Assembly: GCA_900315995.1 (NCBI GenBank)
Contig: ONBF01000003.1
Location: forward strand, 1-46,618
Source of the DNA: an uncultured Eubacteriales bacterium
GTDB lineage: Bacteria > Bacillota > Clostridia > Christensenellales > RUG350
Length of the DNA stretch: 46,618 nt
Reading direction: 5' to 3'
The number at the start of each line of letters is the position of its first letter. Position 1 is the first letter of the stretch. The notes beneath the pieces were generated by a model. It was not told the origin of the DNA. It worked only from the letters and a program-made list of their open reading frames with translations, and did not search any database. The position numbers were made by a program, and so were the translations under genes. Positions 22,425 through 43,306 of this stretch are shown one piece after another.

Positions 22425-22454
22425 TCATTTAATTAACTGAAAAACGATGTGGTT

Positions 22455-22880
22455 ATGAAAGACTTTTTGACAATAATTCAATCGGTTTTGGAAGAACAAA
22501 ACAAATCAACGAAAATTCTATTTGAAGATGGCGTCATTTCAAAAAATACTTTTTATAAATACAAACAACAAAATCCGAACTTAAAAACTCTGATTAAACT
22601 TGCCGACTACTTAAAAGTAAGCATCGACTATATGTATGAATTGAGCGACGAAAACAAGTATAGAAAATATTCCGATAATCAAACCGATTTTTATAATAAA
22701 TTAATAACGCTTATCAATTCCGCCGGAATATCTCAACGTAAATTTTGCAAAGATTTACATTATGCGAAAAATAATATATCAAGATATAAAAACGGAGTAA
22801 TACCAAACATACAGACTTTACTCGAAACAGCAGAGTACTTTGGTTGTACGATAGACGACTTATTGACAAAAGAAGACTAA
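22455..22880 (+). CDS. Regulator with two tandem XRE-type HTH domains
   Basis: The product has about 141 residues from the ATG at 22455; a GTG two codons upstream is less likely. The first half (FLTIIQSVLEEQNKSTKILF...ISKNTFYKYKQQNPNLKTLIKLADYLKVSIDYMYELSD) and the second half (FYNKLITLINSAGISQRKFC...AKNNISRYKNGVIPNIQTLLETAEYFGCTIDDLLTKED) each form an XRE-like HTH with the same ending, L.LA.Y....ID.... It therefore looks like a covalent pseudo-dimer. No effector domain is visible. It is followed by a bidirectional terminator. Confidence 0.8.
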   Translation: MKDFLTIIQSVLEEQNKSTKILFEDGVISKNTFYKYKQQNPNLKTLIKLADYLKVSIDYMYELSDENKYRKYSDNQTDFYNKLITLINSAGISQRKFCKDLHYAKNNISRYKNGVIPNIQTLLETAEYFGCTIDDLLTKED

Positions 22881-22942
22881 TGTCGTAATTATTGATATGA
22901 ATACCGAAGACGCGTATTAATATACTTAATACCTTAATATCG

Positions 22943-22970
22943 AAAAGGCACTCCGTGAGGAGTGCCTTTT
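22943..22970. terminator. Bidirectional terminator
   Basis: AAAAGGCACTCC pairs with GGAGTGCCTTTT around a four-base loop. The stem carries A on one side and T on the other, so it can end both the plus-strand regulator transcript and the minus-strand lipoprotein transcript that converge here. Confidence 0.88.
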
Positions 22971-31773: not shown

Positions 31774-32568
31774 ATGAATTTGTTAAACGTTTTGCTCCCC
31801 GCAATAATTCTTATATCGCTTGCAATTATTTTCTCCGCAATACTTGCCGTTTTATCCGAAAAACTCGCCGTTAAAGAAAACGAGAAAATCAAAGAGATTC
31901 AATCACTCCTTTCGGGCGCAAACTGCGGCGCGTGCGGATATGCCGGATGTAAAAGTTTTGCGGAAGCTCTCGTTTCCGGCAAAGCCGATATTAATACATG
32001 TAATGCGACTTCAATCGAAAACAAAAAGAAAATAGCCGAAATACTCAATATCACGAGTTTTTCGACAAACGAAACGATAGCGGTCGTCGCTTGCAACGGC
32101 GGCAATAATACAGAGAATAAATTCGACTATCAAGGCTTTACGGACTGCAAAAGCGCGGCTCTTGTATCGGGCGGTTACAAAGCGTGCGCATACGGATGTT
32201 TGGGCGGCGGAACGTGCGCAAACGTTTGCAACAGCGACGCGGCTTCGATAAATTGTCAAAATATCGGAGAAATCAATCGCTCGCTTTGTGTAAAATGCGG
32301 ACTATGCGTAAACGCCTGTCCGAAACGTATTATAAAATTTATCCCCGCGTCCGCAAAAGTTTACGTTAAATGTTCAAATCACAACAAAGGCGCAGCGGTT
32401 AAAAACATTTGCTCGAAAGGGTGTATTGCGTGCGGTTTGTGTGCAAAAATTTGTCCCGAAAATGCCGTCACTTTAATAGATAATTTACCCGAAATAGATT
32501 ATACTAAGTGCGTTGGGTGCGGACTGTGCGCACAAAAATGTCCTACGGAGGTAATTACGCAGTTATGA
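31774..32568 (+). CDS. rnfB: Rnf complex subunit RnfB (ferredoxin-oxidising)
   Basis: 264 residues from the ATG at 31774; an upstream in-frame ATG at 31744 lies inside rnfA and lacks a suitable site. It has an N-terminal membrane helix, then the RnfB four-cysteine motif CGACGYAGC...C, then three CxxCxxC...CP ferredoxin motifs (CVKCGLCVNACP, CIACGLCAKICP, CVGCGLCAQKCP). It takes electrons from ferredoxin and feeds the ion-pumping complex. Its TGA overlaps the malQ ATG by four bases. Confidence 0.95.
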   Translation: MNLLNVLLPAIILISLAIIFSAILAVLSEKLAVKENEKIKEIQSLLSGANCGACGYAGCKSFAEALVSGKADINTCNATSIENKKKIAEILNITSFSTNETIAVVACNGGNNTENKFDYQGFTDCKSAALVSGGYKACAYGCLGGGTCANVCNSDAASINCQNIGEINRSLCVKCGLCVNACPKRIIKFIPASAKVYVKCSNHNKGAAVKNICSKGCIACGLCAKICPENAVTLIDNLPEIDYTKCVGCGLCAQKCPTEVITQL

Positions 32569-33948
32569 GACAATGCGGAATTCTTCTTCACATTACGTCG
32601 CTTCCATCCGATTACGGCATCGGCTCTTTCGGTCTTTCGGCTTATAAATTCATAGATTTTCTTCACGAGGCGCGCCAAACGCTTTGGCAAGTTCTTCCTT
32701 TATCGCCGACAAGTTACGGTAATTCACCGTATCAATCTTGTTCGACCGTTGCGGGTAACGAATATTTCATAGATCTCGATATGCTTAAAGCGGACGGACT
32801 TTTAACCGACGAAGACCTTGCGCCTTATAAGGTTAAACACGACAGAATAGATTACGGATATATTTACAATACGAGATTTACCGTTCTTAATATCGCTTTT
32901 GAAAATTTCAAAAAGAATAAAGCTTATAACGAATTTATCGCCGACGGCAAGTTTTATAACTACGCCGTTTTCCGCGCGCTTAAAGACAAGTTCGATAAAC
33001 CGTGGTACGAGTGGCCGATTGAATATTCTTCGCCGTTGTCAAAAGCGGTCGTCGAGTTTATATACCGCATACGATTCGGTCGAAATGTGGGAAAACCCCG
33101 AACTCTTTCTCGTCAAAAACGGAAAGCCTACTCTCGTTGCGGGCGTTCCCCCCGATTATTTCTCGAAAACGGGGCAGCTTTGGGGCAATCCTTTATATAA
33201 TTGGACTTATCACAAAAAAACAAACTTCGATTGGTGGATAAAACGTCTTGCGCATAACGCGGAGTTGTTCGATACCGTTCGTATCGACCATTTCAGAGGT
33301 TTCTCGGCTTTTTGGGCTGTGCCTTACGGCGACGAAACGGCAGTAAACGGTAAATGGCTCAACGCGCCCGGTACAGAGTTATTCGATACGGTTAAGGAGC
33401 GTATACCCGATTTGTCGATAATAGTCGAAGATCTCGGCACGCTCGATAATCGGGCAAGACATCTTATTACTCACGTCGGCTATCCGAATATGAAAATCGC
33501 ACAGTTCGGCTTGACGGGAGATCAAAATAACGAACACTATCCGTTAAATTATCAAAAAAACTGCGTCGCATATACGGGTACGCACGACAACAATACGACT
33601 GTCGGATTCTTACGCACACTCAGAAAAAATAACCGTAATAATTTGATAAACAACATCAACCGACTTATCGACGTTTATAAACTCAAAAAACTTCCCGGCG
33701 CTCCGACGTCAAAAGACTTTGCAAATTCGATAGTCGCCGCACTGCTTATGTCAAACGCGGATACGGTTATAATTCCGTTACAAGATTATATGTTGCTCGA
33801 TGCATCCGCACGCATTAACACTCCGTCCACATTATCGGCTCTGAATTGGAGTTTTGTTATCGACGAAAGAGTATTCGACGATTTTGATTTATCCGATAAA
33901 ATAGGCGTCTTAACGATACGTTCCGACAGAAATATTCAGCCTTCGTAA
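32565..33948 (+). pseudogene. malQ: 4-alpha-glucanotransferase, disrupted by an internal deletion
   Basis: The first frame from the ATG at 32565 encodes about 166 residues of a GH77 protein (LLHITSLPSDYGIGSFG, WQVLPLSPTSYGNSPYQS). At about 33055-33068 the match jumps to the next frame, which continues with YDSVEMWENPELF, GVPPDYFSKTGQLWGNPLY, the nucleophile region RIDHFRGF, VEDLG and YTGTHDNNTT to the stop at 33948. Compared with family members, roughly 35-45 residues are missing at the jump, including the strand that normally reads like GDxPI. So this is a frameshifting deletion, not a simple indel. The gene overlaps rnfB by four bases. Either it is a recent pseudogene or the assembly is wrong here. 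Confidence 0.85.
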
Positions 33949-38128: not shown

Positions 38129-38163
38129 CAATTAAGAATTAAATTAAAACAGTTTTTTGAAGC

Positions 38164-38209
38164 GTACCCCGAAGTTATATAAAATTAAAAACTTTCGGGG
38201 TACATTTTT
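38164..38209 (+). terminator. fba terminator
   Basis: GTACCCCGAAGTT (38164-38176) pairs with AACTTTCGGGGTAC (38190-38203), with one bulged T, followed by TTTTT. Confidence 0.88.
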
Positions 38210-38381
38210 ATTACAAAAAAATAATTCAGTTATCGAAAATAACGATTAAATAAAATTTCGCAATATACGCAAACGTATAACGTGTACTTAAAATATCCCG
38301 TTCCGAAAAATGCAACGCAAAAAATAAAAACGATATTATTATCCGACTTTTCGGATACGCTTCATATCGGCAGAAATCTTT

Positions 38382-39140
38382 TCATATTACCTTCAAGTTG
38401 CCTTTTTTGTCGATTACGTTCCAGCTACCGTCAAGTTTTACCCGTGCCGTCCCATTCTCAAAAGCGGTCGCCGTATCAAACCGATAATCGATAACTACTT
38501 TTCCTTCTTTGTCGATATATCCGCACTTGCCGTCCTTTGTAACGCTTGCAAATCCTTCACTGAAACTCATCGCGCACTCAAACTGCGGCTCAATAACCAC
38601 GTTACCTTCTTTGTCGATATATCCGAAATCGCCATGCTGCTCAAAACACGCATAACCTTCTTTGAATCTGAATATCTCGTCATACACGGGTTGAATACGT
38701 ACACTGCCCGTTAAGTCCTTAAAGCCGAACTTGTTATTGACCGAATACTTTATCCACTCTTCCGGTTCGCCCGGTCCCTTTGGCTTTTGAAACTCTTCTC
38801 GTTGATATTGCGGTCTGCCGTTCTGTCTGTTTTGTTCCGCTTTAATGCTTTGCGAAGATTGTTTTACGAGTGAATCGGGCTTAAAACTCAAATCTCGCGC
38901 GTTAAGCATTTTTCTTACGTCTTCCAAATTCTTCTTGTTGAAATTCTGACAGCGATACATATCGTGTTCCGTACGTCTCAATATATCTCCGAGAGTCGCT
39001 ATCCGCCCTTTTAAGAGCGTTTTTTTCGTCCTATCGGTAAGTTCCAATTCATTAACGCTTATAGCTTGCGTTTGCGCGTCGGCTTGCGGTTCGTAATCAT
39101 CGCTTATGAATTTTTTCGTTCGGTGTTTGAAATAGGGCAT
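38382..39140 (-). CDS. RNA polymerase alpha-CTD-like domain fused to WG repeats
   Basis: The 252-residue protein has three parts. Residues 27-86 (ISVNELELTDRTKKTLLKGR, then IATLGDILRRTEHDMYRC and NFNKKNLEDVRKMLNARDLSF) match the C-terminal domain of RNA polymerase alpha, with an Arg (37) at the place of E. coli DNA-contact R265. E. coli N268 and G296 correspond to Lys and Asn here. A polar linker (87-130) follows. Residues 131-252 form about four WG/KWG-type repeats with the pattern GYIDKEGNVVIEPQF. There is no signal peptide or membrane segment, so it is probably cytoplasmic. It is not the rpoA gene itself. Its function is unknown; a DNA- or transcription-linked adaptor is a reasonable guess. 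It is monocistronic with a near-consensus promoter. Confidence 0.85.
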   Translation of the reverse strand: MPYFKHRTKKFISDDYEPQADAQTQAISVNELELTDRTKKTLLKGRIATLGDILRRTEHDMYRCQNFNKKNLEDVRKMLNARDLSFKPDSLVKQSSQSIKAEQNRQNGRPQYQREEFQKPKGPGEPEEWIKYSVNNKFGFKDLTGSVRIQPVYDEIFRFKEGYACFEQHGDFGYIDKEGNVVIEPQFECAMSFSEGFASVTKDGKCGYIDKEGKVVIDYRFDTATAFENGTARVKLDGSWNVIDKKGNLKVI

Positions 39141-39195
39141 CGTTATTGATTCCTTAATAGTATTTTCATAGTTTCATATTTACGACTACGTAATA

Positions 39196-39224
39196 ATTAT
39201 AACTTTATATTCGCGTATAGTCAA
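39196..39224 (-). promoter_or_regulatory. Promoter of the alpha-CTD/WG gene
   Basis: On the minus strand TTGACT (39219-39224), a 17-base spacer and TATAAT (39196-39201) lie about 55 bases before the ATG, close to consensus. Confidence 0.75.
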
Positions 39225-39289
39225 CAAACAAGATAATCGTATTTTTTTTGCCAAATTTTACCTATTACCCGATAAATATCATTTAGATA

Positions 39290-39317
39290 TTGACAGATAC
39301 TAAATTCGTGATATCAT
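39290..39317 (+). promoter_or_regulatory. Promoter of the candidate small RNA
   Basis: TTGACA (39290-39295), a 16-base spacer and TATCAT (39312-39317) preceded by TGA form a strong-looking extended promoter. There is no plus-strand gene for about 1.6 kb downstream. Confidence 0.6.
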
Positions 39318-39323
39318 AAGTTT

Positions 39324-39406
39324 ATACAAAAGAAAAAAATACGTACGGAAGATTGAGATACCAAAGAAATTGTCCGCTCGGAATTACCGAGCGGACTTGT
39401 TTTTTG
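39324..39406 (+). ncRNA. Candidate small RNA of about 80 nt
   Basis: A near-consensus promoter and an intrinsic terminator (39372-39406) on the plus strand are only about 55 bases apart. The transcript would be about 80 nt: an A-rich unstructured 5' part, then the terminator stem. No credible reading frame with a start site exists in it. The RNA is divergent from the alpha-CTD/WG gene, and its terminator end abuts the stop codon of a convergent lipoprotein gene. No known RNA family is recognised. Confidence 0.45.
39372..39406 (+). terminator. Terminator of the candidate small RNA
   Basis: GTCCGCTCGG (39372-39381) and CCGAGCGGAC (39387-39396) form a perfect ten-base stem with a five-base loop, followed by TTGTTTTTTG on the plus strand. 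On the minus strand the U-tract is poor, although the hairpin also follows the lipoprotein stop codon. Confidence 0.8.
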
Positions 39407-39409
39407 TTA

Positions 39410-40789
39410 TTATTTGGCGGTCGCCGAAGAAGACGCGGAGGCTTTTGCCGATTCATCGGCTTCACTCATAATACCTATCATTTTGCCTTCTTTGTCGCCT
39501 ATCTTCGCAACGTAACAATATTTGTAGTCGTCGCTCTTAATATAGTACACGTTCTCGCCGATAAGCGTCGGATACAAAAACGTTGTGTCGAACGTATCTT
39601 TGATAAGCGGTTCGACGACTTTCGTTCCGTCGAGTTTGTATCTGTACAACTTTTGACTGCTTCCCGTATAATAGACGTATCCGTCTTTAATATTGTTGAG
39701 TTTCGTTATCGTTGCAAAACTGTCTTCTTTATTCAGTTTATCATACGTTGCCGCCGTTGAGTCGTATATATACATATCGGACGAGTCGGCTAAAAGATAT
39801 TTGCCGTTTTCCATCGGATATATCATCGAATAATTTATCGGCGTTATTTTCGTTTCTCTGCTCGCTTCGTACGCAGCGTCCGCACTCATAAAATCTTTGA
39901 AGTTATAAGCGTACGTTCCCGCGGTCGTACTTTCACCGTTTGCCGTGTAACTTTTCACAAAGTAAAGTACGTCGTCGGCGTATCCCGAAATACTTAAAGT
40001 GTAGCACTTGGTATAATCGTTGCCCTTATCATAAGTATCGAAGGTTATTAATTTAACTTTAATATTTCCGTCCGCCGTAACCGCATAGAGCGAATTATAC
40101 GTTTTACTGCTTTTGTCGTCTTCGGGCTTGTTTTCGATAAAATAAACGAGATTATCGGCATCGGTAATCTTGCTGTCGGCTTTGTTGACAACTTTCGGTA
40201 TATAGTAAGAACTTACGGTTTCGCTTATTACGGTTTCTTTCTTATTCTCACAGTTAATCGAAACGAGTTTATTGTCCGAGTAATACACGAGAAATCCGTT
40301 AATAAACGCATATTGCGTCGAATTGCCTTCTATTCTTTTAATAGTTTGCGTTCCGGTTCCGTCAACTTTGGTACGCATAAACTCGATATAGTCGGTAAGC
40401 GTCTTACCGCTTGCGCTTGAAACTTCCGACGGCGTTACGTAATATATCCAGTCGCCGTATACGTAAATTCCGGCTCCCGCGTAACTTGAAAAAACTTTTT
40501 TCGGGACTATCGTCACTGGGTCGCCCGTTATATTGTCTTGTTCGTCAAGGGTATATCTCATAATTGCGCCTTTTACAACCGCGCCTATCTTATTGGAACT
40601 CGTATAATCTGATACGCCGTTGACAAAATAAAGATATTTACCTTGCTTTACCGCAAGTCCGCCGTTGCCGACAACGTCCGCTTTTGAATAGTCTTCGTGC
40701 TCGATTGGTTTCGGATTGTATCCGCAGGCGCATAACGCAAAAATCGAAATCAAAAGAGACGATATTACAATCAATAATTTTTTAGCCAT
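39410..40789 (-). CDS. Lipoprotein with repeated beta-strand readout motifs (DUF5050-like)
   Basis: 459 residues from the ATG at 40789; longer in-frame starts give an implausible N-terminus and lie upstream of the promoter. The signal peptide MAKKLLIVISSLLISIFALCAC ends in a lipobox at Cys22. The mature part repeats short units such as GKYLYFVNG, YGDWIYYVT, NGFLVYYSD, DNLVYFIEN, DDVLYFVKS, DGYVYYTG and ENVYYIKSD about every 40-50 residues. This is the pattern of a beta-propeller-like DUF5050 domain. It ends in an acidic then Ser/Ala-rich tail (DESAKASASSSATAK). The ligand is unknown. It is a single gene with its own promoter. Confidence 0.8.
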   Translation of the reverse strand: MAKKLLIVISSLLISIFALCACGYNPKPIEHEDYSKADVVGNGGLAVKQGKYLYFVNGVSDYTSSNKIGAVVKGAIMRYTLDEQDNITGDPVTIVPKKVFSSYAGAGIYVYGDWIYYVTPSEVSSASGKTLTDYIEFMRTKVDGTGTQTIKRIEGNSTQYAFINGFLVYYSDNKLVSINCENKKETVISETVSSYYIPKVVNKADSKITDADNLVYFIENKPEDDKSSKTYNSLYAVTADGNIKVKLITFDTYDKGNDYTKCYTLSISGYADDVLYFVKSYTANGESTTAGTYAYNFKDFMSADAAYEASRETKITPINYSMIYPMENGKYLLADSSDMYIYDSTAATYDKLNKEDSFATITKLNNIKDGYVYYTGSSQKLYRYKLDGTKVVEPLIKDTFDTTFLYPTLIGENVYYIKSDDYKYCYVAKIGDKEGKMIGIMSEADESAKASASSSATAK

Positions 40790-40831
40790 TTTATACTCCT
40801 TATAGGTCAACTCAGTGTCAACACACGCATA

Positions 40832-40860
40832 ATTATATATTATTCGAAATATTAAATCAA
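40832..40860 (-). promoter_or_regulatory. Promoter of the DUF5050-like lipoprotein gene
   Basis: On the minus strand TTGATT (40855-40860), a 17-base spacer and a perfect TATAAT (40832-40837) lie about 43 bases before the ATG. The leader contains two GTTGAC repeats five bases apart. Confidence 0.7.
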
Positions 40861-40882
40861 ATAATATTGCAAGAAATGTTAA

Positions 40883-40891
40883 TGCTATAAA
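40883..40891 (+). promoter_or_regulatory. Candidate promoter for the small ORF and murG
   Basis: An extended -10 TGCTATAAA (TATAAA at 40886-40891) sits divergent to the lipoprotein promoter. The expected start near 40898 leaves a leader of about 50 bases before the ATG at 40949. Confidence 0.4.
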
Positions 40892-40948
40892 GGGTAAAGT
40901 ATGAAATTTTTCAGCGCATTTCCGAATTTTACGAAAAAAAGGGGGAAT

Positions 40949-41161
40949 ATGAATACGCAAAATATTCCGTTCGATACTCTTTTGACTCAAACGGAAAATG
41001 CCGATTCAAAGATACCCGCTACGGCGACGGTTACGCCCGAAAATGAATCCGACATCGTAAATTCACATATAAAACAAAACGATACCGCGGCAACCGCCGC
41101 CTATCTTAAATTCGTGAAATCGCACGACAACAGAGTAAACTCTGTCAAAAAACGTAATTAA
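40949..41161 (+). CDS. Small hypothetical protein upstream of murG
   Basis: A 70-residue ORF, MNTQNIPFDTLLTQTE to VNSVKKRN, starting at an ATG with a GGGGG-type Shine-Dalgarno three bases upstream. It ends nine bases before the murG ATG, so the two are co-transcribed. An in-frame ATG at 40901 would be almost at the transcription start and is less likely. The product is hydrophilic, Asn/Thr/Ala-rich, with no signal peptide or membrane helix, and ends in a basic tail. No family is recognised. Conservation is not testable here. Confidence 0.6.
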   Translation: MNTQNIPFDTLLTQTENADSKIPATATVTPENESDIVNSHIKQNDTAATAAYLKFVKSHDNRVNSVKKRN

Positions 41162-42929: not shown

Positions 42930-43306
42930 CTAAATACAACACTCAGAGATAAAAAAGTTAAATAGATCTACGGGTTTTTGATAATGTAGAACCTTTTTAG
43001 GTCCGGCGTTAATTAACGCCGGATTTTTTAATGTTTTTTCTGAAACTCTTTCAAGATTTCTTCCTTCGGGATAAAACTCTCTTAAAAGTCCATTTGGATT
43101 TTCGTTTGTTCCTTTTTGCCCAGCACAATACGGATCGGCAAAATACATATTACAATGTAACTCTTTTTCTATTCTGCGCCAACACGCAAACTCACTGCCA
43201 CGGTCGCAAGTTATTGTTTTTACCGCATCTTTTGGATAATGTGATAATGCTTTTATTACTGCTTCGGACATCGATTCTACGCTTCTTTTGTGGCTAAATT
43301 TATTTT
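42930..43306 (-). pseudogene. IS30-family transposase, C-terminal remnant
   Basis: The fragment encodes NKFSHKRSVES, then TCDRGSEFA (second catalytic Asp) and ADPYCAGQKGTNENPNGLLREFYPEG (catalytic Glu), and ends KVLHYQKPVDLF, all diagnostic of IS30 transposases. The N-terminal HTH and the first Asp are missing; the frame is closed by a stop just before 43306. It is therefore a dead fragment of roughly one third of the gene. It lies directly downstream of the large GLUG gene. Confidence 0.88.

Follow-up and report, generated by a model that had tools for sequence, protein, structure and literature searches.

In E. coli, Arg265 and Asn294 of the C-terminal domain of the RNA polymerase alpha subunit (alpha-CTD) enter the minor groove of DNA and Lys291 and Lys298 contact the phosphates (PMC7822876); R265 and N268 are both critical for DNA binding by the domain (PMC11434276). 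The WG-repeat proteins (Pfam PF14903) are the second group of interest here, and many of those we compared are long and carry signal peptides. Alpha-CTD-like domains also occur outside RpoA, since secondary matches to the alpha-CTD profile (PF03118) are present in several of 118 genomes of the class Clostridia, in open frames of 73–1096 aa, so that detached domains of this kind are not unprecedented as such. In the literature library searched we found no paper that combines WG repeats with an alpha-CTD.

The protein described here joins the two, and its gene lies in a 46,618 nt stretch of DNA (contig ONBF01000003.1, from an uncultured bacterium of the order Christensenellales; “the window” below). 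It resembles the RpoA CTD in its full-length domain match, its fold-defining hydrophobic positions, K298, E302 and a basic residue at 291 (E. coli numbering), and differs from it in being fused without an alpha-NTD, in not maintaining R265, N268, N294 and K271 across the family, in its reversed net charge and in its conserved R284 and Y/F290. With the WG-repeat proteins it shares three WG repeats, a strong profile match and a propeller-like model, but it is short, has no evident signal peptide and carries the alpha-CTD-like domain. Unlike the other alpha-CTD-like proteins outside RpoA, it has a WG partner domain, a pairing that was not found in our samples from outside the order. The features of the locus are listed in Table 1.

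Table 1. Features of the fusion gene and of the adjoining DNA, in window coordinates
Feature	Positions	Strand	Basis
CDS, alpha-CTD/WG fusion protein, 252 aa	38382..39140	−	ATG start; ORF list
N-terminal tail, residues 1–18	39087..39140	−	Alignment A1; charges
Alpha-CTD-like domain, residues 19–88	38877..39086	−	PF03118; PDB RpoA matches
Polar linker, predicted disordered, residues 89–128	38757..38876	−	Low pLDDT
WG repeat domain, beta-propeller-like, residues 129–252	38385..38756	−	PF14903; pLDDT; propeller matches
Shine-Dalgarno-like AAGGA, 10 nt 5′ of ATG	39151..39155	−	Read from sequence
CDS promoter, sigma-70-type, TTGACT-17-TATAAT	39196..39224	−	11/12
Divergent promoter, TTGACA-16-TATCAT	39290..39317	+	11/12
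Candidate small RNA, about 80 nt (83 predicted)	39324..39406	+	Promoter/terminator scan; folding
Terminator hairpin, 10-pair stem	39372..39396		Scored on both strands; best T-tract on +
Neighbour CDS, lipoprotein-type signal sequence, no clear Pfam family	39410..40990	−	ORF list; Pfam

Domains of the fusion protein and the setting of its gene

Pfam RNA_pol_A_CTD (PF03118) matches residues 19–80 of the fusion protein (E = 1.2e-11; 44.5 bits, cut-off 23.8) over profile positions 5–66 of 67, which places the domain in the alpha-CTD family, and Pfam WG_beta_rep (PF14903) matches three stretches (E = 4.5e-35, 119.8 bits), which places the protein in the WG-repeat family as well. No alpha-NTD match was found in it, so it is not RpoA as that protein is defined (alpha-NTD plus alpha-CTD); a separate, normal full rpoA is present in the same genome on contig C15. 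The first-pass annotation had recognized the alpha-CTD from the sequence alone, and a generic helix-hairpin-helix domain or a chance match is now ruled out: when the PDB sequence set was queried with the fusion protein, 45 of the 47 matches, including the best, were RNA polymerase alpha subunits, and 15 of 17 orthologues match PF03118 at E ≤ 0.01, against one that matches HHH_5. All 17 match PF14903.

The N-terminal tail is basic in most orthologues and is followed by a YxPPxD-like motif (alignment A1), and the linker has a median length across the family of about 93 aa. In the family the protein as a whole is basic, its median pI being 9.3; tail, CTD and linker are rich in K/R and the WG part is slightly acidic. 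A cytosolic location seems probable because no signal peptide is evident. AlphaFold2 modelled the WG domain with a pLDDT of about 96, and Foldseek and VIA-align matched this model mainly to beta-propellers, half-propeller fragments among them, with Z values of about 8 that are within the range of common arrangements. The WG part is confidently modelled, and at this Z value its reading as a beta-propeller-like module is suggestive; that two such modules pair into one full propeller is speculation. The CTD was poorly modelled (the folding alignment contained no CTD relatives, and a scan of viral contigs for RpoA found none), and its single-sequence model, one long helix, was discarded.

The fusion gene appears to be monocistronic in the window, and it has the near-consensus promoter of its own that had been assigned to it. 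Its convergent neighbour was identified by eye as a fructose-bisphosphate-aldolase-like gene, 3′ of which (38160–38215) lies an inverted repeat followed by T residues, a likely terminator that our scan missed because of its larger loop. In other families the fusion gene is often divergent from a gene for a secreted SH3-domain protein (570–830 aa at loci L037, L040, L041, L046 and L048 of families f3 and f6), and gpr, rpsT and the glutamate racemase gene lie nearby in non-operonic arrangement. No conserved operon partner was found across the orthologous loci compared.

Distribution of the fusion and comparison with RpoA

A search of 297 genomes of the order with the 17-member alignment A1 as query gave a near full-length two-domain fusion in 89 of them (among the matches listed, counted by hand). 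All 89 carriers fall in seven families (labelled f1, f3, f6, f8, f13, f16 and f24), within which absences can be counted only incompletely, since genomes without matches are not all listed. Orthologues share 32–48% identity and come from many genera. Outside the order, only the WG part was matched in the genomes sampled from the class (391) and the phylum (398), and the fusion was not found there. In the RpoA tree the carriers all lie on one side of a single branch (72/70, moderate support), and the fusion CTDs group together, apart from the RpoA CTDs (SH-aLRT 99, on few columns); together these fit one origin followed by vertical descent. The pairing of alpha-CTD, polar linker and WG repeats, first noticed in this one sequence, is a real, conserved and lineage-specific architecture. 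An assembly chimera is rejected because the architecture recurs in 89 genomes. An origin on a phage or plasmid was also considered and set aside: phages, plasmids and viral contigs gave mainly WG-part matches, and PHROGs and PADLOC gave no match.

In an alignment of 74 fusion proteins and 29 RpoA CTDs from the order, the two groups were compared residue by residue in E. coli numbering. R265, N268, N294, G296, K298, S299 and E302 are invariant in RpoA (29/29), whereas among the fusions R265 is present in 8/74, N268 in 7/74 and N294 in 25/74; position 265 is acidic (D/E) in 22/74, and at 299 the seven most frequent residues do not include S. The family as a whole does not conserve the R265/N268/N294/K298/S299 set by which a DNA-binding (UP-element) alpha-CTD is recognized. 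Basic residues (K/R) are kept at 291 (65/74), 297 (71/74) and 298 (71/74), and E/D at 302 in 68/74. Two residues are signatures of the fusion: R284 (66/74, as against 12/29 in RpoA) and Y/F290 (70/74, where RpoA has L/M/I). At the protein-contact positions, 261 is mostly G in the fusions and D/E in RpoA, 287 has changed from D/E to K/R, the acidic 258/259 pair is partly retained, and E286 is found in 41/74. The net charge of the domain, within approximate borders, has a median of +3 in the fusions and −3 in RpoA, and fusion CTDs are ~31% identical to the RpoA CTD of the order, compared with 70% among the RpoA CTDs themselves.

Read against the E. coli contact roles, these counts indicate that the specific contacts have been lost as a family trait and that the electrostatic ones remain. 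It had been proposed that the domain could bind UP elements; as a family function this is unsupported, because R265, N268 and N294 are not maintained in the 74 orthologues and are invariant in the RpoA of the order. The accompanying observation that R265 is kept was right for the window protein, in which Arg37 aligns with it, and misleading for the family. Of R265, N268, N294, K298 and S299, three (R265, N294 and K298) are kept in the window protein, its position 291 is also basic, and its changed DNA-contact residues include N268K, C269T, K271L, G296N and S299N; since R265, N294 and the two basic positions are retained, it may be closer to RpoA than its relatives are in the way it binds DNA. 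Judged from these alignments, most members lack the residues for promoter-DNA recognition and are probably re-purposed adaptors rather than promoter binders.

The divergent promoter-terminator unit and other features of the window

A small RNA with its own promoter and terminator had been proposed on the strand opposite the fusion gene. Both signals are present, and a promoter of at least 11/12 that has a terminator with 9 or more pairs within the following 150 nt is seen a single time in the window and in none of 60 dinucleotide shuffles. The predicted folding energy of the candidate RNA (−25 kcal/mol, z = −5.5) derives wholly from the hairpin of the terminator with the A/T tracts on either side of it, and the 5′ part is A-rich and unstructured. 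What did not hold was conservation, the lack of which had been named beforehand as a refuting observation: DNA similarity over the small-RNA region in 40 relatives is at background level only, Rfam gave no match at gathering (the best match by E-value scores 14.1 bits where 98 are needed), and a divergent promoter-terminator unit lies upstream of only 4 of the 73 other orthologues, at other distances. The unit at 39290–39406 is beyond chance and unconserved, a separate local candidate, and the Rfam, DNA similarity and upstream-region comparisons gave no sign of a connection with the fusion protein.

The stop codon of the neighbouring minus-strand CDS comes about 14 bp before the hairpin, which may therefore act as a bidirectional terminator, and we give an even chance to the reading that 39324–39406 is that gene's terminator plus a promoter-like match and not a functional small RNA. 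The scoring of both strands, the confinement of structure to the terminator, the empty Rfam search and the want of conservation all agree with this; the better T-tract on the plus strand and the comparison with shuffled sequences speak against it, and the relatives are so diverged in DNA that a lack of similarity is not decisive. The neighbour CDS itself stands apart from the fusion-protein system.

A second promoter and terminator pairing is seen at 22863–22970 (+), where it overlaps the end of a small helix-turn-helix-like ORF (22449–22880). By eye, a malQ-like 4-alpha-glucanotransferase at 32508–33948 (+) is split over the overlapping ORFs 32508–33200 and 32899–33948, suggesting a frameshift or an assembly error. 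Also by eye, 346–1461 (−) is a TnpB/IS200-605 OrfB-like ORF, and a short ORF at 42930–43271 (−) looks like a C-terminal fragment of an IS30-type transposase.

Possible roles of the fusion protein

Building on the direct results above (domain identity, conservation, distribution, residue losses and gains, charge shift and the WG fold model), the reading that we prefer, though only tentatively, is a cytosolic single-gene adaptor. Within a single lineage of the order, an RNA polymerase alpha-CTD would have been recruited, once, to a WG-repeat protein; it would have retained the sequence features that frame the fold, together with a basic patch facing the backbone (291, 297, 298, Arg284 and the new aromatic at 290), and abandoned minor-groove recognition along with the usual regulator-contact residues. 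With these given up, sequence-independent contact with nucleic acid, or contact with an acidic partner belonging to the apparatus of transcription or translation, would be its most likely activity. The long cationic linker would act as a tether, and the propeller-like WG module would recruit a second partner, a protein. However, proteins and RNA are also possible ligands of a basic patch, the window protein has not lost R265, N294 or the basic character of positions 291 and 298, and there is no conserved operon partner to suggest a process. The narrower version, in which the detached, charge-reversed alpha-CTD docks the propeller through a flexible tether to the transcription machinery or the chromosome, as a lineage-specific transcription or nucleoid factor, is possible but more doubtful.

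Other roles would account for part of the evidence. The domain of RpoA is a hub for regulators (PMC11434276), Spx being one that works with it (PMC2801614), and a fusion that mimicked it might modulate transcription by binding sigma region 4, NusA or activators in its place, titrating or bridging them; the partly kept acidic 258/259 and the E286 of 41 members would suit such a mimic, but with the changes at 261 and 287 and the low identity to the RpoA CTD it appears rather unlikely. We consider it unlikely, too, that the protein associates with RNA or the ribosome, its basic tail, helix-hairpin-helix domain and cationic linker binding rRNA or mRNA and its WG part a partner. The charge distribution along the protein would favour this, as would the position of the gene near rpsT in some genomes, but that proximity is not operonic and no RNA-binding family is matched. 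Genuine binding of UP-element promoter DNA, at least in the window species, is quite improbable: the residues that the window protein retains speak for it, and its five substitutions, together with the rarity of R265 and N268 and the frequent acidic residue at 265 among its orthologues, speak against it.

Whichever role applies, a core polymerase domain has been detached, altered by the loss of recognition residues and the gain of new ones, and fixed vertically in a large lineage, and its comparison with RpoA within the same genomes names the residues worth testing. Should the fusion protein prove to contact RNA polymerase or the chromosome, it would count as a new regulator that spans the clade.
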